From a virus, in IMG/VR virus record IMGVR_UViG_3300045970_000853, positions 1 through 25,314 of that record: a stretch of 25,314 nt of DNA. The stretch is one strand, 5' to 3'. The position numbers and the translations under genes were made by a program. The notes under the pieces were generated by a model. It saw only the letters and a list, made by a program, of their open reading frames with translations. It ran no database searches and had not been told where the DNA came from. Positions 3,391 to 25,247 of the stretch are shown piece by piece (within the stretch, counting starts at the first letter, position 1; every line of letters begins with the position of its first letter).

Positions 3391-4134
3391 ATGAAGAAGC
3401 TCGCCTACGCAGAAGCGGCCGTTGCCAAGCGGATGGCCACCCACATCTTGGGGGGCGCTGCCGTCGGCGGCTACGCCGCGCACCGGGCCGGGAAGCTGGA
3501 CCCCAAGGGGACGAAGAAGGACTTCAAGGGGCACACCAACCGAGTGCTCGGAGGGGCTGTTGCCGGCGGCGCCCTGGGCGGCATGGTGGGCCAGCTCCAC
3601 TCCATGACCGTCCCGGTCTTCAACGAGGCGGCCGTCAAGTCCATCAAGGAGCGGATCAAGTCGAGAGGGCACTCCTTCCACGACCTGCATCGCGCCGCCG
3701 GCGCTACCGTCGGTGGGGCGGTCGGCGGAGGTTCCAACTACCTCTGGGCCAAGTCGCACAACAAGAAGCAGAAGGACAAGAAGAAGCACGTGGACCCGAG
3801 GGCTGCCGCGGTCGTTGGCGCCGGCTTCGGAGCTTCTCTCGGTCACGGAGCCGGGTCCTACGCTCGGCTCCACCACCTCAACGGTCTTCAGAATGCCCCT
3901 GCCAAGGCTCAGATCCCGTCTTGGCTCAAGGGTGTGAAGACCAAGGCCGAGGCCAAGAGCGCCTACCGGGCCCAGGCCCGCAAGCACCACCCAGACCTCG
4001 GCGGCAACGCTGAGAAGTTCAAGGGAGTGCAGTCTGACTGGGAGGGCTTCGAGAAGCAGCATTTCAACAAGCTCAGCCACTCCATGGCCGCCTTCCTGGA
4101 CGAGCTCGCGTGCATGGCGGAGGCCCGCAGGTGA
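3391..4134 (+). CDS. Glycine-zipper protein with C-terminal J-domain (247 aa)
   Basis: The start follows the previous stop by one base, with GGAG 7 bases upstream. The N-terminal ~165 residues contain four small-residue-rich segments with GxxxG/AxxxG spacing (for example GGAAVGGYAAH, GGAVAGGALGGMVG, GATVGGAVGGG, VGAGFGASLGHG) separated by basic loops, as expected for glycine-zipper membrane segments. Residues ~178-230 match a J-domain: a basic helix AYRAQARKHHPD with the H200-P201-D202 signature, then a turn and an amphipathic helix. J-domains stimulate the ATPase of Hsp70/DnaK. The last 15 residues contain FLDELACMA, resembling a motif near the N termini of several neighbours. A J-domain on a membrane-type phage protein suggests recruitment of host DnaK during assembly or DNA entry; this is inference. 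The HPD and flanking helices are seen directly. Confidence 0.85.
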   Translation: MKKLAYAEAAVAKRMATHILGGAAVGGYAAHRAGKLDPKGTKKDFKGHTNRVLGGAVAGGALGGMVGQLHSMTVPVFNEAAVKSIKERIKSRGHSFHDLHRAAGATVGGAVGGGSNYLWAKSHNKKQKDKKKHVDPRAAAVVGAGFGASLGHGAGSYARLHHLNGLQNAPAKAQIPSWLKGVKTKAEAKSAYRAQARKHHPDLGGNAEKFKGVQSDWEGFEKQHFNKLSHSMAAFLDELACMAEARR

Positions 4135-4985
4135 AACACCCAGCCGAATTCTACATGAAGTACCTGCTCATCCAGGACCCTCAGATCCTGGATGCTCAGC
4201 TGCTGAAGAAGGTCTCCGACTGGGGAATCCTCTCGCCGGACGAGAAGTACCTCGGCTTCTTGCGGCAGCGAATCCCTACTCCGCCCCCAGGCTTCGACCC
4301 CCTCAACTTCTCCGACCGCCCCTCGATGCGCTACCTGCGAGAGCAGGGGGTCTACGAGATCTTCCACTCCACGCCCGGCATGAACGAGGCCTGGGACCTC
4401 ATGGCGGACCCGGAGAAGCGGCTCATCGTCGAGCAGGCCATCCTCTCCCGTCTCGACCTGAAGATGCTGGCCCAGAAGCTCAACAAGAAGAACGGCTGGT
4501 TCCTGACCGAGGACGGCATCTCGACCTTCCGCCACTACTTCTGGAACGTGAAGCTCCTCACCTTCGACGAGTGGGGGCGCCACCTCTGGAGCCGCACGGC
4601 CCTGTACGAGACCTACATGGGGCTGCTGCGGGCAGACTCGAAGCTCTCCTTCTCGCTCCTCCGGATCGAGCAGTCCATCGAGTCGAAGAACATGATCCGC
4701 CGGGCCCAGGAGATCGCCTACTACACCCTGGAGGAGGTCAACCTGAAGCCGGGCACCCCGCCAGACAAGGTGAAGGCGATCTCGGTCCTCAACAAGTCCA
4801 TCGTCGAGTGCCATGAGGCGCTGTCGACCTCCGACATGGCGCTGAAGGACGTGCTCAAGCAGTTCGAGCGGTGGCGCATGGAAGGCTCCCCGGTGCAGCC
4901 GCGAGATGTCCACGAGCTTGCTCCGAACGGCAACTTCACCAACGGCGGCGCCGGCTCGAAGGACCCGAAGCCGCTTCCAAACTGA
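4131..4985 (+). CDS. Uncharacterised protein, possible helix-turn-helix (284 aa)
   Basis: The start is taken as GTG at 4131. It overlaps the previous stop in a GTGA arrangement and has GGAGG 7 bases upstream; another GTG at 4110 lacks that spacing. The protein is mostly helical, without membrane segments. Residues ~105-150 (LDLKMLAQKLNKKNG, then LTEDGISTFRHYFWNV) have the look of a helix-turn-helix followed by an aromatic YFWNV stretch. Comparable stretches occur in phage small-terminase-like proteins, but I cannot confirm the family. The C-terminal ~30 residues are disordered and Gly/Pro/Asn-rich. It is translationally coupled to the J-domain gene and followed 8 bases later by the papain-like gene, so it belongs to the same operon. 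Function is unknown; a small-terminase or connector role is a guess. Confidence 0.8.
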   Translation: MKHPAEFYMKYLLIQDPQILDAQLLKKVSDWGILSPDEKYLGFLRQRIPTPPPGFDPLNFSDRPSMRYLREQGVYEIFHSTPGMNEAWDLMADPEKRLIVEQAILSRLDLKMLAQKLNKKNGWFLTEDGISTFRHYFWNVKLLTFDEWGRHLWSRTALYETYMGLLRADSKLSFSLLRIEQSIESKNMIRRAQEIAYYTLEEVNLKPGTPPDKVKAISVLNKSIVECHEALSTSDMALKDVLKQFERWRMEGSPVQPRDVHELAPNGNFTNGGAGSKDPKPLPN

Positions 4986-4993
4986 GGCGAGAG

Positions 4994-5617
4994 ATGCGCT
5001 GGGCTGGTGGCCTCTTCGATGAGCTGCTGAAGATCGCTGAGACCGCCAAGGTCGAGAAGGCGTTGGAGTCGCCTGTGCCCACCGTGAGCAAGTTGAAGGC
5101 GAGGCTGAAGGCGGGAGACGTGCTATTCACGACGCCCATTCGTTCGCAGATGCACAGCGCGTTCGGCAGGTACGTCTTCAAGCCGCTGTCCCGCCTCGTG
5201 CAGCGAACCGACTACGGCCACTCCTCGCTCTACGTCGGCAACGGTCGGGTTATCGAGTCGCGCATCGGAGAGGGCACCAGGACTCGCTCTCTTCACGCGG
5301 TGGCCAAGAAGAACAACATTGTGGCCATGCGGCCCAGCCTGCCGGCCTCGGAGAAGAGGAAGGCCGTGTCCTTCGCCAAGAAGCAGAACGGGAAGGCCTA
5401 TGACATGAAGGCGCTCATGGCTACCGTGAGCCCTTTCCGTAAGCACCGCCAAGGCCGCAACCCAGAAGAGGCGAAGTCCCACATCTGCTCGGCACTCGTC
5501 GCCAATGCTTACTCTCGCCGCAAGTTCTCCGACTCGTCGCGCCTCACCACAAAGCCTAGCGAGATCATGAAGTCGCCGCACCTCAAGCCTGTCGCCGCTC
5601 TGGAGCCCAAGACATGA
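4994..5617 (+). CDS. Papain-like (NlpC/P60 superfamily, YiiX/YaeF-type) enzyme (207 aa)
   Basis: The ATG at 4994 has GAGG 6 bases upstream, and the upstream frame overlaps the previous gene, so the shorter start is preferred. A segment GDVLFTTP precedes DYGHSSLYVGNGRVIESR, which gives the His of a permuted NlpC/P60 fold (H76), with E88 as the likely polar partner. The nucleophile is probably C165 in HICSALVANAY. This His-first, Cys-last order is typical of the YiiX/YaeF-like permuted branch, whose members hydrolyse amide, peptide or thioester bonds. Residues 8-15 (FDELLKIA) form the short motif shared with other candidate internal proteins. No signal peptide is visible. The enzyme could cut peptidoglycan during entry or act on a host target after delivery; the substrate cannot be told from sequence. 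Confidence 0.8.
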   Translation: MRWAGGLFDELLKIAETAKVEKALESPVPTVSKLKARLKAGDVLFTTPIRSQMHSAFGRYVFKPLSRLVQRTDYGHSSLYVGNGRVIESRIGEGTRTRSLHAVAKKNNIVAMRPSLPASEKRKAVSFAKKQNGKAYDMKALMATVSPFRKHRQGRNPEEAKSHICSALVANAYSRRKFSDSSRLTTKPSEIMKSPHLKPVAALEPKT

Positions 5618-6303
5618 CCGCCATGAACGAGAACTACATCTCGATGCTCCAGAAACTGGCCTCCAAGGAGAAGAAGGCCGCGCCAATCCCTCCCGAGCAG
5701 GTTCACGGGCTCGTGCTCGATAGGCTCCGCAAGGCGACCCCCGGCACCAAGCACTATGCCAACATCATCCGCAAGGGGCTCATCGGGATTCGCGGCTCTG
5801 GCAAGGTCACGACCGCCAGCGTCGAGGGGGACGGGCCCGACCTGAACTTCTTCGAGCGCCACCCGAAGAAGATCCTCGGGGCCCTGGCTCTCGCCGGCGC
5901 TGCTACCCAGCACAAGAAGATCCGCGGCCTTCCCAAGCTCGTCAGGTCTGGGCTCGCCAAGAAGAAGTGGCAGAAGGCTCGGGCAGTGGTCAAGGAGAGA
6001 GCGGCCGACCTGAAGCATCAGGCCAAGAAGAGGGCCAACGAAGGCTTCGCGCACCCCCGGAAGGACCTCGGTCACGAGAAGACTGAGATCGTCGTCTTGC
6101 GGCGCGGCGGCAAGGGGGCAGCCGAGACCGACCTCCACCGGGCAGTGGAGGGGAAGCTCCGCGGCCGCGAGGTGCTGGACATCAACAACAAGCCGGGCCG
6201 GAGCGAGCCGTACGGCCCCCGGCGCCCCGTGGACCTGAGTGCTCCTCGTCACAGCAAGACGGACTACGTCCACCACTCTCACGGCAAGGCTGAGCACATC
6301 TAG
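5614..6303 (+). CDS. Basic protein with one short hydrophobic segment (229 aa)
   Basis: The ATG at 5614 overlaps the previous stop (ATGA), with GGAG 8 bases upstream; an ATG three codons later is possible. The protein is strongly basic. Near the N terminus, YISMLQKLAS (residues 8-17) resembles the recurrent [DE]-x-[LM]-x-K-[IL]-[AS] motif. Residues ~88-103 (HPKKILGALALAGAAT) form a short hydrophobic, small-residue segment whose layout matches NPKKVIGVTAAS in the DUF5661-like protein at 23201. The rest is Lys/Arg-rich helix and then a polar His/Pro/Arg-rich tail. No enzyme motif is seen. It is the last gene tightly coupled to the J-domain operon. A DNA-binding or membrane-associated internal head protein is plausible but unproven. 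Confidence 0.75.
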   Translation: MTAMNENYISMLQKLASKEKKAAPIPPEQVHGLVLDRLRKATPGTKHYANIIRKGLIGIRGSGKVTTASVEGDGPDLNFFERHPKKILGALALAGAATQHKKIRGLPKLVRSGLAKKKWQKARAVVKERAADLKHQAKKRANEGFAHPRKDLGHEKTEIVVLRRGGKGAAETDLHRAVEGKLRGREVLDINNKPGRSEPYGPRRPVDLSAPRHSKTDYVHHSHGKAEHI

Positions 6304-6315
6304 TAGCCTTCATGG

Positions 6316-6321
6316 TAGGGT
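6316..6321 (+). promoter_or_regulatory. Candidate -10 box (TAGGGT) for a near-leaderless transcript
   Basis: TAGGGT lies exactly 6 bases before the ATG at 6328 and is preceded by TGG, which makes it an extended -10 type site. No Shine-Dalgarno sequence is present. No clear -35 box was found. Transcription from such a site would begin at or beside the start codon. Confidence 0.4.
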
Positions 6322-6327
6322 ACATAC

Positions 6328-6798: not shown

Positions 6799-6802
6799 AG
6801 CT

Positions 6803-6822: not shown

Positions 6823-6830
6823 CTCCCCGC

Positions 6831-7040
6831 TCACTGAGCGGGAGACATCCGAGAATGGTGGTACGCAACCGTTCTCGTCAGCATGCTCAGCTTGACGCAG
6901 AGCCGCTTGAACATCGGATCGTAGAGCTCGTGGCATGACGAGCAGAAGACCATCGGCATCGCCATCTTGCTGATGACTTCGAGCCGGATACTGATTGGAC
7001 GGTCGCAGCACATGCACCCGACCTCCACCATCTCAGCCAT
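6831..7040 (-). CDS. Zinc-ribbon microprotein (69 aa)
   Basis: The ATG (7040-7038) overlaps the RNase HII stop by 8 bases, so the two genes are translationally coupled; an AAGGTGG-like ribosome binding site lies ~7 bases upstream. The protein has two CxxC pairs: CMCC near residues 9-12 and CSSC near residues 33-36. This is a small zinc-ribbon layout with a ~20-residue hydrophobic/basic stretch between the pairs. CSSCH also matches a CxxCH haem signature by chance, but there is no signal peptide and the second Cys pair favours zinc. Function is unknown. Tight linkage to RNase HII suggests a nucleic-acid-related role, which is inference only. It is the last gene before the hairpin terminator at 6803-6822. 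Confidence 0.65.
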   Translation of the reverse strand: MAEMVEVGCMCCDRPISIRLEVISKMAMPMVFCSSCHELYDPMFKRLCVKLSMLTRTVAYHHSRMSPAQ

Positions 7041-7668
7041 TATTTGCCACCTTCCCCAAGAACTTGGAGCAGTAGGAACGCCTGTGTTCGTAGATCGTCG
7101 GCCCCATCAGTAGCCCGTGCTTCTCGATGGCGTCGGTGTGGGTCTTGGTCAGGTAGCCTTTATTGATAGCCCAGTCGTAATCTGGCCGGCCCAGCTTCCG
7201 CAGCATCGCCGCCTTCTCGACCATCACCTGGTCTCGCATGACCTTGGCGATGATGGACGCCATCGAGACCTGGACATGGTTTAGGTCCGCCTTCGGCTCG
7301 ATGATCTGCTTCCCTGCCCAGGAGTTGACTCTGTTGCCCCACTCCGTGCCGTCGACGATGAGCATGTCTGGCACACAGTGCAGCTCTCCGAGCGCCCTCT
7401 TGTAGCTCTCTTGCAAAGCCCACTTCGGCCCAAGCTTGTCGATTTCCCAAGCTTCGACTGCACCGAGTCCCTTGTCGTAGGCCGCCTCTAGGAGGGGCAG
7501 CAACAAGGATCTGCGGCGGATTTCGGAGAGCTTCTTTGAGTCGGTAACGCCCTTGGGCAGGAACATGAGATCCTTTGCCCGGGTCACTACGACGACGGAA
7601 ACTATGGGACCTGCTCCACTGCCCCAGCCAACTTCATCGAGGCCTGCGATCAACTCTTCTTCGGGCAT
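7033..7668 (-). CDS. rnhB: Ribonuclease HII
   Basis: RNase HII cleaves RNA in RNA-DNA hybrids and 5' of single ribonucleotides in duplex DNA. The family landmarks are present in order (numbering from the ATG at 7683): AGLDEVG (D16, E17), then IVDGTEW with a catalytic Asp, then KAD and SMASIIAKVMRD, the most conserved segment. This gives a complete D-E-D-D acidic set at a length near the family norm. The usual Gly-Arg-Gly after the first acidic pair reads Gly-Trp-Gly (G19-W20-G21), an unusual substitution at the ribonucleotide-reading loop. I prefer the ATG at 7668: it has AGGGG 5 bases upstream, whereas AAGGAG directly abuts the ATG at 7683. The gene lies in a three-gene minus-strand operon inside the structural region. 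A role in primer or R-loop removal during phage replication is likely. Confidence 0.92.
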   Translation of the reverse strand: MPEEELIAGLDEVGWGSGAGPIVSVVVVTRAKDLMFLPKGVTDSKKLSEIRRRSLLLPLLEAAYDKGLGAVEAWEIDKLGPKWALQESYKRALGELHCVPDMLIVDGTEWGNRVNSWAGKQIIEPKADLNHVQVSMASIIAKVMRDQVMVEKAAMLRKLGRPDYDWAINKGYLTKTHTDAIEKHGLLMGPTIYEHRRSYCSKFLGKVANNG

Positions 7669-7692
7669 GAAAGCCCCTTTCATCTCCTTATC

Positions 7693-8022: not shown

Positions 8023-8038
8023 CGGGGAATCATCCTAC

Positions 8039-9841: not shown

Positions 9842-9844
9842 AAA

Positions 9845-11170: not shown

Positions 11171-12109
11171 ATGAGCGACGAACTCTCTCGGTACCTTTCG
11201 ACAGGCAGCACTCACGCGAGCCTGTCGGCCGAGCGGCTGGAGTCGATGGGCAAAGAAGCAGCCAACATGCTCCTCGACAAGAAGGTTCCCCTGAACACCA
11301 GCATCCCGAAGTTGGCGGCTGCGGTCGACGACATCAACGGCGAGCAGGTGAAGCGCATCTGCGAGTTCGCCAACACCGCCGTCTATCTCGCCCAGCATGA
11401 CCGCAACAAGACGGCCGGCTCCGAGTCGAGCTACCCGCAGTTCGAGCTCGCCGATCCGAACCGCGTCATCCAGGACCTCTCTTCCGGCTCGAAGCCGACC
11501 CGCATCAGCCAGGTCGACCTCGACTACGGTCGGCAGCACGAGAAGGCCAAGCTCTCCTCCAAGCGTCCTGAGCTGGAAGACGCCCTCCAGGCTCTCTTCA
11601 TCCCCGACCAGGAGAAGACGGCTTCCGTCCTCGACTTCAGCCGAGAGACGGGCGTCCACGAGCTGATGACCGCCAAGGGCAACCTCGTCTCCATGAAGGA
11701 GCACCTGGAGAGCGCGGCCGAGAACTACGACCTCCTCCAGAAGCAGGCTGCCGCCGAGTACTACCACGAGGTGAAGACCCACCTCCTGACCGGCGAGAGC
11801 TTCTCCGACGTGCTCATGGCGGCGAACTCGTCCGGGCTGGAGGGGGAGAAGATCGCCTCGGTCCTGGCCCCGGTCATCGAGCGGCTGCTCCGGGAGAAGG
11901 TGGCTTCGGACGCCGCCCTCTCGCGGGGCGTGTCGGACCTGGAGAAGGTCGCCCATCGAATCGTGAACGAGGAGCATCCCCTCGTTCGCCTGGTCGGCGC
12001 CGTCGCCCACTTCGACGAAGAGCTGTCCAAGTGCGCCGAGGCCCTGGCTTCGGTCGACTCTCAGCTGGTCGAGGTCCGCAGCACCATCAAGGAGACGTTC
12101 CTTGCTTGA
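11171..12109 (+). CDS. Helical virion/assembly-type protein (312 aa)
   Basis: The ATG has GGGAG 10 bases upstream, a weak spacing. The protein is almost wholly alpha-helical, acidic and without Cys motifs or membrane segments. A Pro/Ser-rich break near residues 85-115 separates an N-terminal domain from a long helical C-terminal part (~155-312). The K-[TIVLC]-A pattern recurs strikingly: NKTAG, EKTAS, EKIAS, EKVAS, LEKVA, SKCA. It is the first gene of the long plus-strand head operon and overlaps the next gene by 8 bases. In this position between TerL and the protease many phages have the portal, but this protein is too short and lacks portal features. A head-core or internal protein role is possible. 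No family is recognised. Confidence 0.8.
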   Translation: MSDELSRYLSTGSTHASLSAERLESMGKEAANMLLDKKVPLNTSIPKLAAAVDDINGEQVKRICEFANTAVYLAQHDRNKTAGSESSYPQFELADPNRVIQDLSSGSKPTRISQVDLDYGRQHEKAKLSSKRPELEDALQALFIPDQEKTASVLDFSRETGVHELMTAKGNLVSMKEHLESAAENYDLLQKQAAAEYYHEVKTHLLTGESFSDVLMAANSSGLEGEKIASVLAPVIERLLREKVASDAALSRGVSDLEKVAHRIVNEEHPLVRLVGAVAHFDEELSKCAEALASVDSQLVEVRSTIKETFLA

Positions 12110-12985: not shown

Positions 12986-15781
12986 ATGGACAAGCAGATC
13001 CTGTACCTGGGTCGAACGGAGCAGGGTGTCTTTGCCCAGGCTCTGTTCGGCAGTTCTGGCGCCTTCGAGAAGGTCGCTGGGGCTCCGCCCTTTGCCGACT
13101 GGGCCACCGGGGACGAGCTGCGGAAGTTCATCCGGACCATCACCAAGGAAGACAGGAAGACCGGCGTCTACACCTTGGTGAACGCGCTTGGAGCCGGCGA
13201 GTTCTTCGGCCCCAACATCAACAGCGACTACTTCCCGTGGGATGCCCTGGCGCACGAGGGCGACGACTACGGCTACAAGACCTTCCTCCGGGCCCACGCC
13301 TTCCAGCACCACGCCAACAAGGATCCAGCTCGGGCCTTCGGCGTGCCTGTCCACTCCATCCTCAACACCCACATGAAGAGGGTGGAGCTCATCATTCGGC
13401 TGGACCGGGACCAGGCTCGGGCACAGGGCGCCGACGGCATCATCACCCGGGTCGAGAAGGGGGAGTTCCCCGACGTCTCGATGGGGTGCAAGGTTCCCTT
13501 CGACGTCTGCTCCATCTGCGGCCATCGTTCCAAGACTCGGGACGACTACTGCTTCCCGGCTGGCACCCAGATCCTCACGGAGGGGGGCCAGTACCAGAGC
13601 ATCGAGACCCTGAACGTCGGGGATGAGGTCGTCACCCACACCGGGCAGACGAAGCGCATCACGGCGCTCCTGCCTAGCGTCGCCCACGACGGCCTGGTCA
13701 AGATCGAGTCCTTCGGCTTCTCGACCATCGAGGCGACCCCCAGCCATCCCTTCTTCGTGGCTCGGACGCGGTCTGGTGTGCATGGTGGTCGGTACCTCCA
13801 GCTCATGGAGACGTCTCCAGACTGGATGGCGGCCGAAGACATCCAGCCGAACGACACCGTCTTCCTACCCATCCCACCGCTCTCCGACAGCGTGGATGCC
13901 TTCCCGTACGACGAGAAGAGGGGCAAGGAGGTCGGCTGGCTGCTCGGCATCTACCTGGCAGAGGGCTGCCCTTCCTTCTCGAAGGGAACTCCGTACCCGA
14001 AGGGGGTGAACTTCTCCCTTCACTTCGATGAGACGGACATCGAAGACCACATCAAGCAGGCCGTCCTGCACCTCGATGAGGGGGCTCGGGTCGGCATCTC
14101 CGTGGACGAGAGCCGACACTCCCGCACCGTTCGGGTGATGAGCCGAAAGGCCGCCGAGTGGCTGATGTTGCACGGCGGGCGTGGCAGCAAGACGAAGCTC
14201 CTCAGCCCTGCCATGGCCGGCGGCCCGAAGTTCATCTCCCTCCAGATGCTCAAGGGCTGGGCGGAAGGGGACGGCAGCTACGACGCCAAGATGGACCTGC
14301 TGCGGGTCGCCACGTCCTCGGAGACCCTTGCTCGGCAGATGCAGCTCGTGGCGGCCGGGTGCGGCATCCTGGCCGGCGTGAAGCTCCACTCCAGAGACAC
14401 GAACTTCGGCCATCAGGACATCTGGTACGTCTCCTTCTCTGGGGACGCCGCTCATGCGGTCCAGGAAGCTCGGCCCCAGGATGTCTTCTCGAAGCAGAGC
14501 AAGCTCTTCTTCTGGAAGAACTACCTCTGCTCCACCGTGAAGAAGGTCGAGAACCTCGACTTCCACGGCCCGGTCTACAACTTCGAGGTCGAGGACGACC
14601 ACTCCTACGTGGCCGGCTCCTACGCCGTCCACAACTGCCAGCACATGCGGCCGCCCGAAGAGCTTCGTGGCATCTACGGCCCGAACAAGATCCTCCCAGA
14701 TGGTCGCAAGATCTACGTCATCAACCTCACCCCCAGGTTCTTCGACATCAGCTTCGTCTTCATCGGCGCGGACAAGACGGCCAAGGTGATGGCGAAGCTG
14801 GCTTCGAGGGGGGATCATGTCTGCATGGGAAACGTGTGTGCACTACCTTCTGAGAATGGAGGAGAAGGGGCTGTTGTTTATGGGCCCACTGGAACTCCTG
14901 CCAATCTTGGAGAAATTCGGAAGACTGCCAGCGCCTGTGATGAGATGCGGGGGCCCTGCGGACGAAAGTGCGCTGAGTGCGCCGAGCGAGAGTCCTGCCA
15001 CACAGACAAGCTCGCGGCCGCTTTCGGGGTGAAGAAGCAGGCCGCCAAGAAGGTGGCCGAGATCATCAAGAGCGTCCCTACAGGCGTCTTTGCTCTCAAG
15101 ACCCTTCCCCACCTCGAAGGGGCTGAGCCAGACATCGACCGGTGCGACCTGGATGAGATGGCTGAGAGGCCTCTCCGAGAGGCCTTCTCCGGCGCTGCGC
15201 GCCTAGGGATTGTGCTGAAGCCCCACGAGTTTCAGCATTTGACGCTTCGGAGGATGGGGGAGGACGCCCTACTCCAAGACCTGAACGAGCATCACAAGAT
15301 CTTCCGGCCGTCCCGGGAGTTCGCCGACGTCGGTATGGATAGCAAGCTGGACGACGTCTTCGACCTCTTGAAGAAGTACATTCACCAGCGTACGGCTCTC
15401 GGTACTCCCTTCGTCATGAGGGTGGTGATGTCGGGTGGAGGGGCCAAAAATGCTCTTCCCACTAGAGAGCCGATCGAGCATTCTTTGCTGGACAAGGTCA
15501 GCGCCGCGTACAATGGGTACCGTCGCAACCTCTTGATGAAGCTCTCGCAGTCAGTGGAAGGGATTCACAGCGACCCGAGGTTGAGAGAAGTTTTCTTGAA
15601 AGACGAGCTGAGCAACATGTTCAACAAGACCTCAAGCTCCTCGATCATGTCTCCCGACTCGATGCAGTATTTCTTGGGCGCGCACTTCTCTGACCGCAAC
15701 GTACTGTGCGAAAGTGCAACCGTCGGGTCGGTTGCCTTCAACGATGAGTGGCTCCACGGGATGGACCACACTTTGGCCTAG
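12986..15781 (+). CDS. Prohead (head maturation) protease interrupted by an intein
   Basis: The precursor is 931 aa; removal of the 362-residue intein leaves 569 aa. The N-extein resembles T4 gp21/assemblin-type serine proteases. It has a GPNINSDYFPWD segment (residues 75-86), equivalent to the N-x-N-G-x-x-Y/F-P element, a His near residues 108-109 in QHHANKDPARAFG, and the Ser of DVSMG (S165). Directly after follows a zinc knuckle C175-x2-C178 ... C551-x-x-type H553, which is contiguous only after splicing. The C-extein continues with NLTPRFFDISFVFIGADKTAKV and then ~330 residues that include another Cys-rich patch (residues ~650-680). Such enzymes cleave scaffold, internal and capsid proteins inside the prohead. 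The gene lies upstream of core-like proteins and the capsid gene, as expected. The C-terminal extension is unassigned. Confidence 0.85.
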   Translation: MDKQILYLGRTEQGVFAQALFGSSGAFEKVAGAPPFADWATGDELRKFIRTITKEDRKTGVYTLVNALGAGEFFGPNINSDYFPWDALAHEGDDYGYKTFLRAHAFQHHANKDPARAFGVPVHSILNTHMKRVELIIRLDRDQARAQGADGIITRVEKGEFPDVSMGCKVPFDVCSICGHRSKTRDDYCFPAGTQILTEGGQYQSIETLNVGDEVVTHTGQTKRITALLPSVAHDGLVKIESFGFSTIEATPSHPFFVARTRSGVHGGRYLQLMETSPDWMAAEDIQPNDTVFLPIPPLSDSVDAFPYDEKRGKEVGWLLGIYLAEGCPSFSKGTPYPKGVNFSLHFDETDIEDHIKQAVLHLDEGARVGISVDESRHSRTVRVMSRKAAEWLMLHGGRGSKTKLLSPAMAGGPKFISLQMLKGWAEGDGSYDAKMDLLRVATSSETLARQMQLVAAGCGILAGVKLHSRDTNFGHQDIWYVSFSGDAAHAVQEARPQDVFSKQSKLFFWKNYLCSTVKKVENLDFHGPVYNFEVEDDHSYVAGSYAVHNCQHMRPPEELRGIYGPNKILPDGRKIYVINLTPRFFDISFVFIGADKTAKVMAKLASRGDHVCMGNVCALPSENGGEGAVVYGPTGTPANLGEIRKTASACDEMRGPCGRKCAECAERESCHTDKLAAAFGVKKQAAKKVAEIIKSVPTGVFALKTLPHLEGAEPDIDRCDLDEMAERPLREAFSGAARLGIVLKPHEFQHLTLRRMGEDALLQDLNEHHKIFRPSREFADVGMDSKLDDVFDLLKKYIHQRTALGTPFVMRVVMSGGGAKNALPTREPIEHSLLDKVSAAYNGYRRNLLMKLSQSVEGIHSDPRLREVFLKDELSNMFNKTSSSSIMSPDSMQYFLGAHFSDRNVLCESATVGSVAFNDEWLHGMDHTLA
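13550..14635 (+). mobile_element. LAGLIDADG intein (362 aa) in the prohead protease
   Basis: Splicing block A starts at C189 of the precursor (CFPAGTQIL). Block B is T251-P-S-H254. Two LAGLIDADG-type motifs follow: GWLLGIYLAEG (residues 317-327) and LKGWAEGDGSY (422-432), each with its acidic residue (E326, D429). Block F is near DFHGPVYNFEVEDDHSY, and block G ends VHN before C551 (the +1 nucleophile). All residues needed for standard class 1 splicing are present, and both homing-endonuclease acidic residues are intact, so the element looks active for splicing and possibly homing. It lies exactly before a Cys of the host protein's zinc knuckle. Confidence 0.95.
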
Positions 15782-15837: not shown

Positions 15838-16737
15838 ATGCCGATGGATCCGCAGCTCGCCGCCCTGTACGGGACCGACGAGGAGACCGACACCGAGAAG
15901 CTGGCCGCCGCCGAGATGGCGGAGGGCCTCGCCGAAGAGGAGCAGTTCGACGTGGCGACCGCGACCGACGAGCAGGTCGAGGCCCTGGCCCAGGAGTTCC
16001 TGGCCAGCGAGGGCACCGAGGAGACCGCTGAGGTCGCCGAGGCCGAGGAGCCCAAGGAGGAGGAGCAGGTCAAGATGTCCGCCGACGAGGAGGCCCAGGA
16101 GAAGCTCGCCGAGGCCGACTACCTCGGCCGCGTCATGGCCCACGCCTACGTCGCCGAGCTCCGCGGCATCGAGTCCGGGGAGAAGACCGCCGCTCCGTAC
16201 GGCGAGAAGGAGAAGGAGGAGCACAAGCGGATCGCCCGCGGCGCCTCCAACGTCACCGGAGCCGGCTACGGCGCGGCCGGCGCCTTCGCCGGGCATCGCG
16301 GCGCCAAGCATCTCGTCGCCAGGGCTGCCGAGAAGGCAGTGGCTGCCGGCGGCAAGGCGAAGGGTCCGAAGACCCAGGCTGCCCTCCGTGCCGCTGGTGC
16401 CGTTGGCGGCGCGCTCGCCGGCGGCGCTGCCGGCAAGGGCGTCGGCTACGCCGCGACTCGTGCGGGCAACCGCGTCGCTCGCATGCTGACCACCGAAGGC
16501 AAGAAGGAGAAGAAGTCCAGCGCCGAGACCGAGGAGATGTCGGCTCTCGACGTCCTCGCCGAGCGCCGGGCCCTGGAGATCCTGGAGGCCAACGGCATCC
16601 AGCTGGAGGCTCCTGAGGCCGTCGAGACCGAGAAGGTCTCCGCGTCCGAGGAGGAGATGAACCTCCTGGCCCAGGCCGTCGAGGCCCGCGCCGAAGAGCT
16701 CCTGGCCGCCAACGGCTACGAGTTCGAGCAGGAGTAG
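15838..16737 (+). CDS. Acidic core/scaffold-like protein with glycine-zipper centre (299 aa)
   Basis: The ATG at 15838 has AAGGAG 9 bases upstream; an earlier in-frame start would overlap the protease gene. Residues 1-110 are extremely Glu/Ala-rich helix, as in prohead core or scaffold proteins. Residues ~133-215 are basic and small-residue-rich (GAGYGAAGAFAGHRG, AVGGALAGGAAGKGVGY), a glycine-zipper region. Residues 222-231 (KKEKKSSAET) recur identically in the protein at 17104. The C terminus holds two related units, LAERRALEILEANG (240-253) and AVEARAEELLAANG (280-293), with a weaker one near residue 45 (EQVEALAQEFLAS). It lies between protease and capsid genes and is followed by a strong hairpin. 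The acidic-basic-acidic layout is compatible with a scaffold or internal protein that is cleaved on maturation; this is inference. Confidence 0.8.
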   Translation: MPMDPQLAALYGTDEETDTEKLAAAEMAEGLAEEEQFDVATATDEQVEALAQEFLASEGTEETAEVAEAEEPKEEEQVKMSADEEAQEKLAEADYLGRVMAHAYVAELRGIESGEKTAAPYGEKEKEEHKRIARGASNVTGAGYGAAGAFAGHRGAKHLVARAAEKAVAAGGKAKGPKTQAALRAAGAVGGALAGGAAGKGVGYAATRAGNRVARMLTTEGKKEKKSSAETEEMSALDVLAERRALEILEANGIQLEAPEAVETEKVSASEEEMNLLAQAVEARAEELLAANGYEFEQE

Positions 16738-16801: not shown

Positions 16802-17086
16802 ATGTACTCCAGCAGCAAGTCCAAGACGAGCAGCAGCTTGGCCTTCCTGAAGGGGTTCACCGACGAGATGATGAAGATTGCCAACCTGACCGATGCGAAC
16901 AAGAGGGTGCGGAACTCCGGCCCTGCGGCAGCCGTTGGGGGGACTTCCCTGCACAAGGTGAGGCACTACTCCAAGCCGGCAACCATGACCAACATCGTGA
17001 AGACGGCTCCGACTCTCGCCCCACCAGCTCCGCCAGCAGTTCAAACCGCCACCACGACTTCCCCTCCCGCCGTCATCGGCGGGTAA
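16802..17086 (+). CDS. Small protein with targeting-like motif and Pro/Thr-rich tail (94 aa)
   Basis: ATG has GGAG 7 bases upstream, just after the hairpin at 16747-16782. The first 12 residues are Ser/Lys-rich, followed by FLKGFTDEMMKIAN, where DEMMKIA (residues 21-27) matches the recurrent motif of candidate internal proteins. Residues ~30-60 are basic and polar. The last ~25 residues are Pro/Thr/Ala-rich and probably disordered. There is no membrane segment or catalytic motif. The gene sits between two Lys/Glu-rich core-like genes. A small internal head protein carrying a packaging tag is the simplest reading, but nothing outside the motif supports a function. Confidence 0.7.
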   Translation: MYSSSKSKTSSSLAFLKGFTDEMMKIANLTDANKRVRNSGPAAAVGGTSLHKVRHYSKPATMTNIVKTAPTLAPPAPPAVQTATTTSPPAVIGG

Positions 17087-17103: not shown

Positions 17104-18324
17104 ATGAAGACCAAGCTCGCCGGCCACTTCCCCCTCCAGGACGCTCTCCGGCGCACCATCCAGGAGGCGAAGCTGAAGATCGCCGCCTCGGAGAAGGGTG
17201 AGGAGAAGTCCGAGGAGAAGAAGGAAGAGAAGAAGGCCCCGCCCTTCGGCAAGAAGGACGAGAAGAAGGAGACCAAGAAGGAGGAGGCCAAGGAGAAGGA
17301 GTCCTCGGCCGTGGTCGACTTCCAGAACCCCGACGAGGTGGAGAAGCTGGCCGCCTCCCTCGACTTCGTGGCCGAGAAGATCGCCGACTACACCACCATC
17401 GGCGGCGAGAGCCACCAGGGCGGCGAGGTCCTCCCGGTCCAGTCGCCGGCCAAGGGCAAGCAGGTCTACCCGACCAGCAAGGGCGGCAAGAGCCCGGCCC
17501 CGGCCGTGAAGGCCACCAAGGACAACCCGGGTCCGGCCAACGCCATGGCCACCGACGACGAGCGGGCCCCGGGCGGCACCGGCGCCAAGTACCCGGCGCA
17601 CGGCGTCCTGAAGACCGGCGGCGTCGCGGCCCTCAAGGAGGTCGTGGCTGCCCAGCTGGCCGCCGAGCCTGTCGAGGAGGAAGAGAAGACGGCCAACAAG
17701 GTGGTCAACCGGGTGGCCGAGCTGTTCGCTGGCGGCAAGAAGGGCACGATCGGGGAGATGGCTGGCAAGCGTGCCGGCAACTCCTTCAAGGGCTTCAGGC
17801 AGATGACCGGCGAGGCTGCCAAGTCCACAGCCGCCCGAGTGGCCGCCGGCACCACGGTGGCCCTTGGCGCCAAGAAGGCCCTTGGCAAGAAGGAGAAGAA
17901 GTCCTCTGCCGAGACCCCCGAGGCCGTCCAGTACATCCTCGGCAAGATCTCCACCGTCTACAACGGCGGCGAGTCCCATCAGGGCGGCGAGCAGCTCTCC
18001 AACACCATGCCCGTCACCATGCAGCCGGGCCGCTCCCTCATCCAGAACAAGGATGGCATCAAGAACGTGACCAAGCCCGAGGCCAAGGCCTTCCGGAAGA
18101 AGGAGCTGGCCGAGGTCCTGTCCGAGCCGGCCTCGCACCGTGGCGTGGCCCCGAACATCAGCGGAAACCTGCGTAGCGCCGCGAGTGGCGGTGTGAAGAC
18201 CGCAGCGAAGAGGGCCCTCCTCAGCAAGATCGCTGGCGAGGGATGCAAGTGCACCGAGAACACCCAGTGCCGTCACTGCCATCTGAAGGAGGCCACCGCC
18301 TCCCTCCAGGCGTCGGCGCAGTAG
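17104..18324 (+). CDS. Lys/Glu-rich core-like protein with internal repeat (406 aa)
   Basis: ATG has AGGAG 6 bases upstream. Residues ~30-70 are a dense Lys/Glu charge block. Residues ~80-95 hold EKLAAS and EKIAD helices. GGESHQGGE occurs twice (residues 100-108 and 288-296), each preceded by a similar helix ending in Ile-x-x-Tyr, so the protein contains a diverged internal duplication. Residues ~205-260 form a basic, small-residue-rich helix region. Residues 262-271 (KKEKKSSAET) are identical to a segment of the 15838 gene product. The C terminus has CKCTENTQCRHCH, a possible zinc site. Gene position between protease and capsid, high charge and low complexity suggest a prohead core or internal protein. 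No database family is recognised by eye. Confidence 0.8.
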   Translation: MKTKLAGHFPLQDALRRTIQEAKLKIAASEKGEEKSEEKKEEKKAPPFGKKDEKKETKKEEAKEKESSAVVDFQNPDEVEKLAASLDFVAEKIADYTTIGGESHQGGEVLPVQSPAKGKQVYPTSKGGKSPAPAVKATKDNPGPANAMATDDERAPGGTGAKYPAHGVLKTGGVAALKEVVAAQLAAEPVEEEEKTANKVVNRVAELFAGGKKGTIGEMAGKRAGNSFKGFRQMTGEAAKSTAARVAAGTTVALGAKKALGKKEKKSSAETPEAVQYILGKISTVYNGGESHQGGEQLSNTMPVTMQPGRSLIQNKDGIKNVTKPEAKAFRKKELAEVLSEPASHRGVAPNISGNLRSAASGGVKTAAKRALLSKIAGEGCKCTENTQCRHCHLKEATASLQASAQ

Positions 18325-18348
18325 CCCCACCGAGAGGAGATGAAGCCC

Positions 18349-18720
18349 ATGGAGAAGATCAGCAACCAGCAGGCGGCCGCGCTCACAAAGGTGGCAGCAA
18401 GCACCCTGCGGGCTCTCTCGGAGGAGAACAAGGCCCTCCGCGAGAAGGTCGCGTCACACGAGAAGCAGTCTCGCGCGGAGAAGATCGCGGCGATGATGGA
18501 GGAGAAGGGGCTCAACACCGAGCTCGACTTCTCGTCCAAGGTCGCCTCGATCCTGGAACGGGACGATCTCACGGTTCTCGAAGAGGCCGTGGGGATGAGC
18601 GCCCCGCAGATGAAGCTCGCCTCCATCCATGAGGATGGGGTCGAAGTCGAGAGCTCCGGTGACGGAGCCGTCGACGCGGCGACCCAGCAGTTCGCCGCCA
18701 ACCTCGCCTCGCTGGAGTAG
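18349..18720 (+). CDS. Coiled-coil small scaffold-like protein (123 aa)
   Basis: The ATG at 18349 is preferred: GGAG lies 9 bases upstream, while the ATG at 18340 directly abuts it. Residues ~8-55 form a continuous charged helix with heptad spacing (TLRALSEENKALREKVASHEKQ), predicted coiled coil. K-[VI]-A steps recur (TKVAAS, EKVASH, EKIAAM, SKVASI, MKLASI), five in 123 residues. The C-terminal ~30 residues are acidic. No catalytic or membrane features are visible. It sits directly upstream of the decoration-like and capsid genes in the same operon. A scaffold, core or capsid-assembly helper is likely, by position and coiled-coil character only. Confidence 0.75.
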   Translation: MEKISNQQAAALTKVAASTLRALSEENKALREKVASHEKQSRAEKIAAMMEEKGLNTELDFSSKVASILERDDLTVLEEAVGMSAPQMKLASIHEDGVEVESSGDGAVDAATQQFAANLASLE

Positions 18721-19297: not shown

Positions 19298-20425
19298 ATG
19301 AGCGCCGTCCCAGCAAAGGTCCTGAACGACCTCTTCTTCGAGAAGGTGTCCACCCAGGAGGGCAAGGACAAGATCGCCGAGTTCGGTGGCACGTACATCC
19401 GTGACCGCCTGCGCGAGGTCTCGTTCGCCCGCAAGATCCTCCCGCCCCAGCCCGTCCAGCGGTCCGAGTGCCAGCGCTCGGTCCACCACGACACCCTGGT
19501 GAAGATCATCGACATCGAGCCCAACTCGCGGGCGATGTCGATGTCCTTCCGCGGGCAGCCCACCGCCCGCTTCATCCGCGCCCCGCGCTTCGAGATCCCC
19601 TTCTTCACCATCTCCTCGGAGAAGTTCGAGAAGACGGAGCAGGAGCTCCTGGCGTACGAGATGCCCGTCACCAAGATCATCGAGGAGAACTCGGTGAAGG
19701 ACATCCAGACGATCGAGGACCGCCAGTTCCTCCTCTTCGTCGAGGCCGCCATCCAGATGTACCAGGCTGACGCCAACCTTGGCCCCGTGGCCTTCAACGG
19801 CACGAACGTCAACGCCGGCGCGGTCAAGGGCGTCTCCGTGGTCAAGGGCGACGGCGCCCTGGCTGCCGTGGCCCAGGACTTCACCGTCTACCCGGTCCTG
19901 AAGCCCGACTTCATCAAGCTCAAGAAGCTGCTGCACCGGCGCCACCTCCGGGCCGAGCGGCTGCTCATCACCGAGCCGGACTACGACGACATCTCGTCGT
20001 GGACCATCCAGGACGTCGGCATGACCATCGCCGGCGAGACCTCCACCGAGGGCTGGAAGAGCCCGACCGTCGTCGGCCTCAAGATCATCCGGACCATCAA
20101 GACGGAGATCCTGCGCGAGGGCAACGTGTACTGCTTCACGGCGCCCGAGTTCTTCGGCCGGTTCTACGTCCTGAACCAGACGAAGTTCTACATCGACAAG
20201 ATCGCCAACCTCATCACCTGGCAGAGCTGGGAGGACATCGCCATCGGCATCGGCAACGTCGCCTCGCTCGTGAAGCTGGAGCTCTTCCCCGGCTCCGTGA
20301 CCCCTGGCGCGACCGATGCTGGCTTCGCCACGGCCATCCCGGCTGACGAGAACGACCCCGAGCTCTACCCGGTCAACAACCGTGTCGACGCCGGTCTCCG
20401 CTATCCTTCGGTCTCGCAGTTCTGA
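19298..20425 (+). CDS. Major capsid protein
   Basis: ATG has AGGAG with good spacing. The 375-aa protein has a helical N-terminal arm (residues 1-45) and an E-loop-like region rich in Arg and hydrophobics (residues ~60-100). A P-domain long helix follows (DIQTIEDRQFLLFVEAAIQMYQ, residues ~135-160), and the C-terminal part includes FFGRFYVLNQTKFYIDKIANLITWQSWEDIAIGI. That ending, with a Trp-rich strand followed by an amphipathic segment, is typical of HK97-fold capsid proteins of large myophages. The gene follows protease, core and decoration-like genes, and a 13-bp hairpin terminator stands directly downstream, both expected for the most abundant virion protein. No long N-terminal scaffold domain is visible, consistent with separate core-like proteins upstream. 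Confidence 0.85.
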   Translation: MSAVPAKVLNDLFFEKVSTQEGKDKIAEFGGTYIRDRLREVSFARKILPPQPVQRSECQRSVHHDTLVKIIDIEPNSRAMSMSFRGQPTARFIRAPRFEIPFFTISSEKFEKTEQELLAYEMPVTKIIEENSVKDIQTIEDRQFLLFVEAAIQMYQADANLGPVAFNGTNVNAGAVKGVSVVKGDGALAAVAQDFTVYPVLKPDFIKLKKLLHRRHLRAERLLITEPDYDDISSWTIQDVGMTIAGETSTEGWKSPTVVGLKIIRTIKTEILREGNVYCFTAPEFFGRFYVLNQTKFYIDKIANLITWQSWEDIAIGIGNVASLVKLELFPGSVTPGATDAGFATAIPADENDPELYPVNNRVDAGLRYPSVSQF

Positions 20426-20497: not shown

Positions 20498-20504
20498 CTT
20501 CCGC

Positions 20505-21077: not shown

Positions 21078-21081
21078 AAGC

Positions 21082-21087: not shown

Positions 21088-21093
21088 CCTCAC

Positions 21094-21834: not shown

Positions 21835-21837
21835 CTC

Positions 21838-22365: not shown

Positions 22366-22413
22366 TGTTTGTACCCAAAGATGTTGTTGACATAGGCATG
22401 AGGTAGCAGGAGA

Positions 22414-22433
22414 GTCGTCTCTACGGAGGCGAC
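22414..22433 (+). promoter_or_regulatory. Hairpin with UACG tetraloop hiding the HNH ribosome binding site
   Basis: GTCGTCTC (22414-22421) pairs with GAGGCGAC (22426-22433), 8 bp with one G-U pair, around loop TACG closed by C-G. In RNA this is a cUACGg loop of the very stable UNCG class. The GGAGG ribosome binding site (22425-22429) lies in the loop edge and stem, and the ATG at 22434 follows directly, so translation initiation should be occluded. Confidence 0.65.
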
Positions 22434-23201
22434 ATGATCGACAGAACGCAGCTCAAGAAGATGTACGAGGACGATGGCCTGAAGATGGAGCAGATCGCGG
22501 ACAGACTCGGCGTGAGCCGAAGCACAGTGAGGTACCAGCTCATCCAAGCTGGCATCCCTCTCACCGAGCGAGCCCTCATCGACCGCGACGAGGTGAAGAA
22601 GCTCTACGAGGGTGGGTTGTCCCCCTACCAGATCGCGCAGGAGACTGGGCATTCTCAGGCTGGTATCAGGCTTGTCGTCAAGGATCTGGGCCTCAAGACC
22701 CGGAACATGCACGAGTCCCATCTCCATCGCACCGAGGAAGCCTTTGGCTTCGTGCCGACGAAGGAGCGCATCGAGAAGGTGATGAAGGAGAACGACTACA
22801 ACGCTGCATCGGCTGCCGATGCGTTGGGGGTCAAGTACCCGACCCTCTACGGTTACCTCCGGAAGTTCGGCATCCAGAGCAAGGGCGTCAGGGTGGCAGG
22901 AGAAGCCTCCTCCTTCGCCAAAGCGAAGATGGTGCTGCGTGCCGAGAAGGAAGCTCTGCTTCAGAGCATTGACATCAGGGCCTGTGAGATCTGCGCGGAG
23001 TCTCGCGTCTTCGAGATCGCGCATATCTACGCGAACAGGCACGGCGGGCCCATCGAGAAAGAGAACATCCTCATCCTCTGCCCCACGCACCACACTCTTC
23101 TCGACCAGGGCAAGCTGAGTAAGGCAGAGTTCACGAAGGTCAAGGCCAAGGTCCGGGTCGCAGAGAAGAAGTACAAGTTCAAGATCTACGAGGAGTGGTG
23201 A
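22434..23201 (+). CDS. HNH homing endonuclease with N-terminal helix-turn-helix repeats (255 aa)
   Basis: ATG has GGAGG 4 bases upstream, within a hairpin. Residues ~5-40 (LKKMYEDDGLKMEQIADRLGVSRSTVRYQLI) form a helix-turn-helix. A second related unit (VKKLYEGGLSPYQIAQETGHSQAGIRLVV) follows at ~52-85, and a third (NYNAASAADALGV-type, then TLYGYLRKFGI) at ~120-145. The C-terminal nuclease begins CEICAESRVFEIAHIYANRHGG, where AHI and NILILCPTHHTLLD supply the HNH residues plus a CxxC-type zinc pair. This modular DNA-binding plus HNH layout is typical of free-standing phage homing enzymes. It is inserted between a connector-like gene and the DUF5661-like gene, and its stop overlaps the next ATG. 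It appears intact. Confidence 0.9.
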   Translation: MIDRTQLKKMYEDDGLKMEQIADRLGVSRSTVRYQLIQAGIPLTERALIDRDEVKKLYEGGLSPYQIAQETGHSQAGIRLVVKDLGLKTRNMHESHLHRTEEAFGFVPTKERIEKVMKENDYNAASAADALGVKYPTLYGYLRKFGIQSKGVRVAGEASSFAKAKMVLRAEKEALLQSIDIRACEICAESRVFEIAHIYANRHGGPIEKENILILCPTHHTLLDQGKLSKAEFTKVKAKVRVAEKKYKFKIYEEW

Positions 23202-24574
23202 TGTCAGAGCTCCTGCACGGCGGCAAGGCAGACAACGTCCCCTCCTCCGCCTTCCCGGCCAAGAAGCTGCATGAGGGCATGAAGGTGGAGCGCGAGCACA
23301 CCTCGAACCGCAAGGTCACCGAAGAGATCGCCAAGGACCACCTGAGCGAAGACATGGACTACTACGAGAAGCTGAAGAATATGGAGAAGAAGGCCGTCTC
23401 GGACGAGTACGTGCGCGCCAAGGCGCGAGTCTCGAAGCGCGAGGGGGGTAAGAAGTTCTACACCGTCCACCGCCCCACTCCCCCCTACATCGGCCCGGAC
23501 TGGAAGACTGCCACCAAGCCCTACACCGGCGTTCGCCAGGTGGACGACATGTTCGGCGGGGACATGCCGAGCGCCAGCGCCTTTGACAAAGCCAAGTCGC
23601 ACGCTCGGATCGGTGCCGCGAAGCTCAAGGGGCTACTCAAGCGCAACCCCAAGAAGGTGATCGGCGTCACTGCGGCGTCCCTCACTGGCTTGGCAGCCCT
23701 GACTGCTCTCAAGAAGTCGAAGGAGAAGAAGGCCATGATGGATGGGTTCTTCGACGAGCTGGAGAAGATCTCTGGCGATGTCGCCGACATGGACGAGTTC
23801 CGGAAGAAGCACCCGGATCTCGCGAAGAAGGTCGAAGACATGGTCGACGGCATCAAGAAGAAGTACGCCCCCGTCCACGAGATCAACCGGAAGCGGATGG
23901 CGGATGCCGACGCAAGGGCTGAGAAGGTGCGTCGAGAAGGGGCCCGGGTGGACTGGAAGCGAGCCAACAGCGATCGGGTCAAGGAGCGAGCCGCCCGTAT
24001 GGGCAGGTCCAGGTTCGTTCGGAAGGCCAAGACGCTGGCCGCCCCCGTGGCCGCCGGCGCAGGCATCGCCGGCGCCGTCATGCTCGCCAAGCACCTGAAG
24101 GACAGGAAGGCAGAGCAGCCAGCGAAGACGAAGAAGGCTGCTGCCCCCAAGTTCGACCCGGCCAAGGCCCGCAAGATGGTGGAGTCCGTCGCCAACTTCA
24201 GGTCTCGCATCTTGGACACCCCGAAGCGCGGCGCCCTCACAGGTGGCGTCGTCGGGGGCCTCTTCTCCGGCGCCGGCGCCGTAGGCAAGGAGCACGACGA
24301 GCGGGCCAAGGACATCCAGGCCAAGCTCTCCCCTCAGGAGGCGAAGAAGGCGAAGCGGCTCCGCCTCGTCGGCCACGCCATGAACATGGCGACTGGGGTC
24401 GGTACGGGCTCCCTCGTCGGCGCCGGCCTTGGGTACGCCCATCGTGGGGTCAACAAGTGGGGCGCCAAGACCCTGGAGCAGGGAACCTCAGAGCGGGCGG
24501 CCGCTGTTCGTAGGGGCCTCTTCCGCGGCATCTTCGGCAGGATGCACCCCGCCAACTGGAAGAAGAAGGGCTAG
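23201..24574 (+). CDS. DUF5661-like protein with glycine-zipper segments (457 aa)
   Basis: The ATG at 23201 overlaps the HNH stop, with AGGAG 5 bases upstream; two GTG codons just before it are less likely. The N-terminal ~65 residues (ELLHGGKADN, KVEREHTSN, EEIAKDHLSEDMDYYEKL) match my memory of the DUF5661 signature, with conserved E-H-T, E-I-A-x-D-H-L and Y-Y-x-K-L. Residues ~150-175 are a hydrophobic segment after NPKKVIG. Then M179-M180-DGFFDELEKISG repeats the motif that marks N termini elsewhere, hinting at a fusion point. Residues ~185-270 are charged helix. Residues ~275-300 (AAPVAAGAGIAGAVMLAK), ~340-365 and ~400-430 are glycine-zipper segments, and the tail is basic. A multi-segment membrane-type internal protein is plausible; function is unknown. 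Confidence 0.8.
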   Translation: MSELLHGGKADNVPSSAFPAKKLHEGMKVEREHTSNRKVTEEIAKDHLSEDMDYYEKLKNMEKKAVSDEYVRAKARVSKREGGKKFYTVHRPTPPYIGPDWKTATKPYTGVRQVDDMFGGDMPSASAFDKAKSHARIGAAKLKGLLKRNPKKVIGVTAASLTGLAALTALKKSKEKKAMMDGFFDELEKISGDVADMDEFRKKHPDLAKKVEDMVDGIKKKYAPVHEINRKRMADADARAEKVRREGARVDWKRANSDRVKERAARMGRSRFVRKAKTLAAPVAAGAGIAGAVMLAKHLKDRKAEQPAKTKKAAAPKFDPAKARKMVESVANFRSRILDTPKRGALTGGVVGGLFSGAGAVGKEHDERAKDIQAKLSPQEAKKAKRLRLVGHAMNMATGVGTGSLVGAGLGYAHRGVNKWGAKTLEQGTSERAAAVRRGLFRGIFGRMHPANWKKKG

Positions 24575-24583
24575 GAGATCACC

Positions 24584-24730
24584 ATGGCTGTCGCACTGAA
24601 GAGCAAGAACTTCCAGAACCCGCAGGAGCTGACCAAGTTCGTGGCTGACGCTGCCAACAACGTCACGGCTGGGAACTACTCCATCGTCTACAACACGGCC
24701 AGCAACGTCTACACCCTGTTCTGGGTCTGA
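24584..24730 (+). CDS. Microprotein of 48 aa
   Basis: ATG at 24584 has GGAG 6 bases upstream, the G of which follows the previous stop. The protein begins MAVALKSKNFQNPQELTKF and ends VYNTASNVYTLFWV. It reads as a helix (PQELTKFVADAANNV) followed by two beta strands (YSIVYNT, VYTLFWV), so it could fold as a small alpha/beta unit. Codon use is strongly C/G-ending, like its neighbours. It is short but has a good ribosome binding site, and it fills the gap between two structural-type genes. Function is unknown; a small virion protein is possible. Confidence 0.75.
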   Translation: MAVALKSKNFQNPQELTKFVADAANNVTAGNYSIVYNTASNVYTLFWV

Positions 24731-24773
24731 GTCGTTCCCACAGGCCCAGGCCTCGAAGTAGCCTGATACCTCC

Positions 24774-25247
24774 ATGAGCGACCTCGACTTCTACGAAGCT
24801 CTCTCCAAGGACCAGGTCCGCCAACAGGCGGGTCAGGAGTTCTTCGAGAAGCTCTCCGCGACCAGCCCAGCGGGCGACATCTTTCGTCGGACCCTGACGA
24901 GGTACAAGCCGGAGCTCATCGGGGCCGCCGCCGGCACGGCTCTGGCCGGCCTCGTGGGCTATGGGACGAACAAGCGCTGGGGCGGGAAGCCGTCGCAGGC
25001 CGAGATCGATGCCGACGAGATGCACGGCGCCGAGCTTGCCGCGCAGGAGCGGGCCGGCACGCCTCCCAGCTTCGGCAAGAAGGTCCGCCTCTTGGCGACC
25101 GACGCCAACAGGGGCATCTCGAAGATCATGGCTGAGCACCCGAGGTCGGCGGCTTTGGCACTCGGCCTGGCCAGCGCCGGCACCGGTGCCAAGCTGGGCC
25201 GTCTCGTATCGAACATGAAGCGCCGCGCCGCGGTTCTTGGAGGCTGA
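24774..25247 (+). CDS. Glycine-zipper membrane-type protein (157 aa)
   Basis: No Shine-Dalgarno sequence precedes the ATG; a TAGCCT box lies 9 bases upstream (24759-24764). The N terminus (DFYEALSKDQVRQQAG, then EFFEKLSAT at residues 22-29) holds a variant of the recurrent motif. Residues ~48-67 (ELIGAAAGTALAGLVGYGTN) and ~125-145 (SAALALGLASAGTGAKLG) are small-residue-rich hydrophobic segments, probable glycine-zipper membrane helices. The loop between them is acidic then basic, and the C terminus is basic. It resembles the 12102, 12350, 3391 and 23201 products in plan rather than in sequence. Likely an internal or membrane-inserting virion protein; no family recognised. Confidence 0.75.
   Translation: MSDLDFYEALSKDQVRQQAGQEFFEKLSATSPAGDIFRRTLTRYKPELIGAAAGTALAGLVGYGTNKRWGGKPSQAEIDADEMHGAELAAQERAGTPPSFGKKVRLLATDANRGISKIMAEHPRSAALALGLASAGTGAKLGRLVSNMKRRAAVLGG

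Follow-up and report, generated by a model that had tools for sequence, protein, structure and literature searches.

AFxDELxKI[AS], a candidate capsid-targeting tag on unrelated proteins of large, mostly uncultured phages

Why would proteins that share no overall similarity carry the same short motif near their ends? The question is raised by a 25.3-kb virus record of IMG/VR, IMGVR_UViG_3300045970_000853 (25,314 nucleotides, analysed as a whole and called the window below), which holds a phage head block together with several small genes. A first-pass annotation of this DNA had listed seven sites of the pattern [DE]-x-[LM]-x-K-[IL]-[AS] in otherwise unlike proteins and proposed that they target their carriers to the capsid and are removed by a gp21-like protease, as in phage T4. 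That proposal is the reading best supported by the sequence evidence, while the motif itself had to be corrected: the consensus is AFxDELxKI[AS], and its K-x-[AS] part recurs at scattered sites in the protease and in the scaffold-like proteins. Judged from sequence, this peptide is very probably a T4-like capsid-targeting sequence, new in its residues, that would be removed by a head protease cleaving after K-x-A.

The phage group that carries the tag is large and mostly uncultured, and no tag-bearing phage in culture turned up in the searched collections. Relatives of the window's capsid protein were found in 157 IMG/VR stretches, many of them in records of 176-210 kb, and the named relatives are Salmonella phage Arash and Vibrio phages D69, D148 and D181. 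Eleven near-complete relatives (~180-210 kb) and Arash were examined whole. Gene starts were taken from a simple gene caller, so individual start sites may be wrong.

A shared peptide at the ends of non-core proteins

A de novo count of tripeptides, taken over the N-terminal 40 residues of 962 genes (five genomes), ranked KIA and DEL highest. Aligned tags of the relatives gave the consensus [ASG]-F-x-D-E-L-x-K-I-[AS], in which the open or loosely fixed positions, numbered from the K and counted with one sequence per cluster, are conserved at 95% ([ASG], -7), 81% (D, -4), 86% (L, -2) and 93% (I, +1). This conservation ends directly behind the final A/S. An example of such a peptide is AAFQDELVKIAVSQ. 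Across 11 genomes the tag occurs on 61 of 2476 genes, with the K at residue 15 in 28 of them, and strict matches in the 11 relatives have the K between residues 10 and 22 in 57 of 72 cases (4.0 expected). Each of the 11 genomes has three to nine carriers, and a short terminal peptide is common to non-homologous proteins of one phage. The first-pass annotation had predicted that a motif profile scanned over the phage proteomes would be enriched near N termini relative to a shuffled control, and this was indeed the case.

Within the window, the strict pattern [DE].[LM].K[IL][AS] occurs four times compared with 0.16 ± 0.40 in 1000 shuffles. The shorter pattern K[ILVT][AS] was observed 75 times (24.8 expected), and [DE]K[ILVT][AS] 29 times (2.9 expected). 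When every residue was tried as X in X-[ILVT]-[AS], only K was clearly enriched (3.0-fold, against 0.3-1.2 for the rest); with the order reversed, [AS][ILVT]K, the window showed no enrichment (0.84). These controls rule out an effect of helix composition alone.

A nucleotide search of all IMG/VR for ATG-N21-FxDELxKI[AS] returned 108 stretches, whereas a codon-scrambled version of the pattern returned none. Grouped by the sequence behind the tag, the 194 unique carriers make up 102 clusters without detectable mutual similarity. Tag codons vary among carriers, and therefore selection acts on the peptide. The ATG-tag pattern was matched 48 times in bacterial and archaeal genomes totalling 257 billion bases, mainly within a few homologous families, among them HslU, PhoU and response regulators; two of the 48 resemble tagged phage proteins, and one of these two metagenome-assembled genomes encodes a capsid protein of the window type. 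The same capsid protein was detected in 27 of the 36 tag-bearing records searched; among these, 23 are virus records 100 kb or longer, and 20 of them have it.

The tag is confined to non-core genes. It is absent from the N terminus in all 154 homologs of a set of conserved genes of Arash (terminase, portal, capsid, protease, tail and others), and this set also took in RNA polymerase subunits, DNA polymerases, a sigma factor, a helicase and structural proteins. The outcome that the annotation had named as contrary to its proposal, a profile matching replication and structural proteins equally, was not seen. Besides a glyoxalase, the recognisable domains among the carriers are SNF2-type helicase, NUDIX, GNAT, histidine phosphatase, MazG, C92 peptidase and P-loop, a set that fits injected effectors. 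Two further carriers (L313, L087_4687), suspected by eye to be ADP-ribosyltransferases, were rejected as such: neither has a Pfam family and L313 has no PDB match. The tagged SNF2-type helicase (L235, 766-2925) has a homolog in Arash, gp217, that is annotated as a DNA helicase and starts untagged. Another carrier (L079, 18290-18880) bears two tags in one protein, an N-terminal FFDELEKIS and an internal MFDELSKIA, and is possibly a two-part cargo. Arash gp96, an untagged homolog of one carrier (E 1e-4), is annotated as a structural protein, which offers a hint at most.

K-x-[AS] sites in head proteins and the head protease

The last residues of the tag recur in the head block of the window, which comprises the terminase (gene 8039), four scaffold-like genes (11171, 15838, 17104 and 18340), a protease with intein (gene 12986) and the major capsid protein (gene 19298). 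K-h-[AS] is enriched 9.3-fold in the family of gene 18340, 4.0- to 4.9-fold in those of genes 11171, 15838, 17104 and 762 and in the protease, and 2.6-fold in the capsid protein. In contrast, the terminase and genes 18763, 4131 and 44 reach 0.4-1.4-fold; the small family of gene 21838 is an exception (4.4-fold, 11 sites). Features whose coordinates are written as start..end, here and below, lie on the plus strand. The scaffold-like protein at 18340..18720 has six K-[IVL]-[AS] sites, of which site 36 is invariant, and its 12 homologs hold 57 against 6.2 expected. For the scaffold-like protein at 17104..18324, rich in K-[ILVT]-[AS], 86 sites were counted in 11 homologs (20.5 expected), and for the acidic scaffold-like protein at 15838..16737, rich in E-K-[LTV]-[AS], EKhA occurs 36 times in 11 homologs (1.9 expected). 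The head-block protein at 11171..12109 is also rich in K-[ILVT]-[AS], with 71 sites in 12 homologs against 14.5. Arash has very divergent head proteins; there K.A[SAG] is enriched 4.8-fold in the head block and 1.05-fold elsewhere, and the D69 head block gives a similar picture by eye.

The gene at 762-3389 encodes 875 residues with K-x-[AS] enriched 4.3-fold; because this richness equals that of the scaffold-like proteins, its product may be a cut head protein.

The major capsid protein (19298-20425) contains a candidate maturation cleavage site, K25-I26-A27 (19370..19378). Alignment of the N termini of 75 distinct capsid proteins showed K25 in 74 of them; at position 27, 73 have A and two have S. 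The phage G capsid protein is homologous to the window-type protein (hhalign 97%, E 1e-10); it has 282 residues, and its mature form, by N-terminal sequencing, 255 (PMC5646251). By our arithmetic 27 residues are lost, and the cut therefore falls after A27. Since the N-terminal alignment is gapless, this residue corresponds to A27 of K25-I26-A27. The processing of the phage G capsid protein is, by homology, the strongest experimental anchor for a predicted cleavage after K-x-A. Removal of the tag by the head protease is a prediction that draws on the enrichment of its terminal K-x-[AS] in head proteins and on the capsid site placed through phage G; the K-x-[AS] end of the tag would be the likely cleavage site.

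The candidate enzyme is the head maturation protease at 12986..15781, identified by PHROG 18299, BFVD fold matches and intein domains, the intein occupying about residues 189-552. PHROG 18299 (head maturation protease) was matched by 18 of 22 homologs, and BFVD folds matched at E 1e-6 to 1e-4 are a prohead protease, COG3740 and a prohead core protein serine protease. H108, H109 and S165 are invariant in the 22 homologs and are probably catalytic. The gene lies between the terminase and the major capsid protein, and the phage G homolog gp19 between the portal and the major capsid protein. On the other hand, the Pfam profiles Peptidase_S77 and S78 matched none of the 22 homologs, even with E values of 1 allowed, and the fold had no significant match in PDB. 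A Pfam S77 search of the record itself was also negative, but control genomes were equally silent, which makes this search uninformative alone. The description as gp21-like therefore holds for the prohead-protease fold and the place in the head block but not for membership in the gp21 family. The intein sits after ...RSKTRDDY, and the protease open reading frames (ORFs) of relatives range from 526 to more than 2000 residues, which suggests repeated or different inteins in this gene; one homolog, L007:4705-6312, is free of an intein.

Two apparently separable parts and the alternatives to the proposed capsid targeting

With the core [ASGC]Fx[DN]E[LMFI] as the sole definition of a tag, N-terminal cores had their own K..[AS] in 47 of 59 cases and a K-x-[AS] upstream in two of 59. 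For C-terminal cores, K-x-[AS] was found within 14 residues upstream in six of 12 (background 7.3% per 14-mer), while the remaining six resemble shadow ORFs. Four of the six plausible C-terminal tags have lost their own K..[AS]. The window provides one such case in its J-domain protein (gene 3391-4134): a candidate cleavage site K-L-S (residues 227-229, 4069..4077) stands between the cargo and a C-terminal tag, AFLDELACMA (residues 234-243, 4090..4119), in the same order as in the C-terminal tags of relatives. The J-domain homologs L088 and L195 (G005) have AFFDELSKIA and AFVDEM near their C termini. Because the C-terminal tags and the J-domain protein have K-x-[AS] upstream, the cut site is probably on the cargo side at both protein ends; these small numbers make the arrangement suggestive.

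We propose that, late in infection, the tag would dock its cargo on the prohead under assembly, at its scaffold or core. The likely docking surface is the D-E pair with a hydrophobic face at -9, -6, -2 and +1 relative to the K, positions spaced as one face of a putative amphipathic helix. The head maturation protease would then cut after K-x-A or K-x-S in the scaffold, the capsid protein, itself and the tag. With the tag removed, the cargo would remain with the DNA in the head and be ejected into the next host. With moderate confidence we extend this to a general cargo-loading system, in which an AFxDEL docking helix, with K-x-A between tag and cargo, may recruit almost any protein at either end. 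If so, the injected enzymes of these phages form a large and rapidly changing arsenal, and sequence alone suffices to list it.

Several observations weigh against capsid targeting with removal. There is no strong P1' preference after the tag, and the scaffold sites favour S/A/E/G there. Position 25 of the phage G capsid protein is A, not K. The C-terminal set is small: about six tags are plausible, and of the 12 core matches half are probably shadow ORFs. For most cargo clusters no domain is known. The dispersed genes of Arash have no recognisable tag, and no N-terminal tripeptide like KIA or DEL is prominent among them.

The alternative that survives best, though improbable, holds that the tag is a processing site only, a propeptide in which AFxDEL is read by the protease rather than the scaffold and the cargo reaches the head by another route. 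It would account for a K-x-[AS] common to scaffold and protease, and the propeptides of phage SPN3US need not be targeting signals (PMC10052503). However, the sites in scaffold, protease and capsid proteins have no AFxDEL, and cleavage therefore does not require it. Some C-terminal tags, conversely, keep AFxDEL without their own K-x-A and have the site on the cargo side instead, so the two parts of the tag are separate. Quite unlikely is an address elsewhere in the infected cell, for example the phage nucleus or a membrane. A shared short N-terminal helix could in principle serve any destination, but a phage nucleus would be expected to receive replication and transcription proteins, which are among the 154 untagged core homologs, and the end of the tag is the very motif enriched in head proteins. 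Chance in lysine-, glutamate- and alanine-rich helices, or common ancestry, is scarcely credible, for although E, K and A abound in the proteins and each motif is short, there is no excess in shuffles, in reversed order or with other residues replacing K, the scrambled DNA pattern gave 0 against 108, the clusters are 102 and unrelated, and bacterial genomes yield mainly a few homologous families (HslU, PhoU).

Tagged genes of the window and known systems

All seven motif strings listed by the first-pass annotation are present at the residues it gave, but as tags they are of unequal quality: three are good (genes 4994, 16802 and 23201), one is the C-terminal tag of gene 3391, and three are weak or coincidental (5614, 24774 and 12350). 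The C92 papain-like peptidase gene 4994-5617 has an N-terminal GLFDELLKIA (residues 6-15, 5009..5038), in which D9, E10, L11, K13, I14 and A15 are invariant in four homologs; the tag, kept in three homologs, is followed by a variable linker. Its AlphaFold model leaves residues 1-15 outside the confident fold, with a predicted local distance difference test score (pLDDT) under 50. The fold itself corresponds to PDB 3kw0, a solved cysteine peptidase. Gene 16802-17086 carries GFTDEMMKIA (residues 18-27, 16853..16882), which fits the family consensus and is kept in homologs from L084, L008 and L094. An internal tag, GFFDELEKIS, also fits the consensus in gene 23201-24574 (residues 182-191, K at 189; 23744..23773). 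It directly follows an in-frame ATGATG, and the N-terminal half of this gene matches DUF5661 (domain at 23201-23400, ahead of a tag) and is present as separate ORFs in relatives. A homolog of the DUF5661 half in relative G006 (G006_145251, 122 residues) carries YYDKLKLIEKKAFADELMKIA at the equivalent position.

Among the weaker sites, gene 5614-6303 has the degenerate YISMLQKLA (5635..5661); its apparent relative G004_139045 has the canonical AFQNEMRKMA, and the two share a FNFFERHPKKILG-like stretch by eye, with no BLAST match. QEFFEKLS in gene 24774-25247 (24834..24857) is a weak match, and the EFFEKLS listed there under the strict pattern does not fit it, having F as its third residue; in the homolog G004_160171, ALFQKLA stands close to the N terminus. 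EEMFKLA of gene 12350 was rejected as coincidental, being absent from homologs, many of which have K-T-A near residue 23. Elsewhere in the window, gene 7033-7683 (minus strand) is ribonuclease HII-like by eye (start GLDEVGWGSGAGP), its sole match being an unnamed PHROG, and genes 20505-21077 and 22434-23201, inside the late gene block, resemble HNH-type homing endonucleases by eye.

Virion cargo is usually identified only by mass spectrometry of virions. The tag predicts probably injected proteins of uncultured phages, in more than 100 unrelated clusters and mostly without known function. A further suggestion is that a head protease follows a new cleavage rule (after K-x-A), and as a short removable tag the peptide is a candidate for loading chosen proteins into phage particles. 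Full-text searches of the literature collection used gave no description of the peptide itself or of a comparable tag in another phage.

Phage G has homologous forms of the major capsid protein (gp27, losing 27 residues; PMC5646251) and of the protease (gp19) but A three residues before the inferred cut. In SPN3US and phiKZ, short cleavage motifs are likewise repeated in propeptides and inner-body proteins (PMC10052503, PMC9026906). However, they are cut after A-x-E or S/A-x-E, no shared tag has been described, and the SPN3US propeptides are mostly 111-254 residues, unlike the short tag here. In phage P1, the N-terminal 30 residues of DarB, a large injected antirestriction protein, bring a reporter into the head (PMC9024508), but the N termini of Dar proteins have no consensus (PMC9024508), whereas the tag here has a clear one. 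The nearest parallel is T4, whose internal proteins IPI-III are unlike one another and share a short N-terminal peptide with separable parts, removed by the prohead protease (PMC9026906); targeting residues 4 and 7 are distinct from processing residues 8 and 10 (PMC9026906). The T4 tag has ~10 residues, few known carriers and a glutamate site, while the phage group described here has another sequence, a K-x-A site, more than 100 cargo clusters and C-terminal versions. The system appears T4-like in its working, but it differs from T4 in sequence and cut site and has far more carriers.

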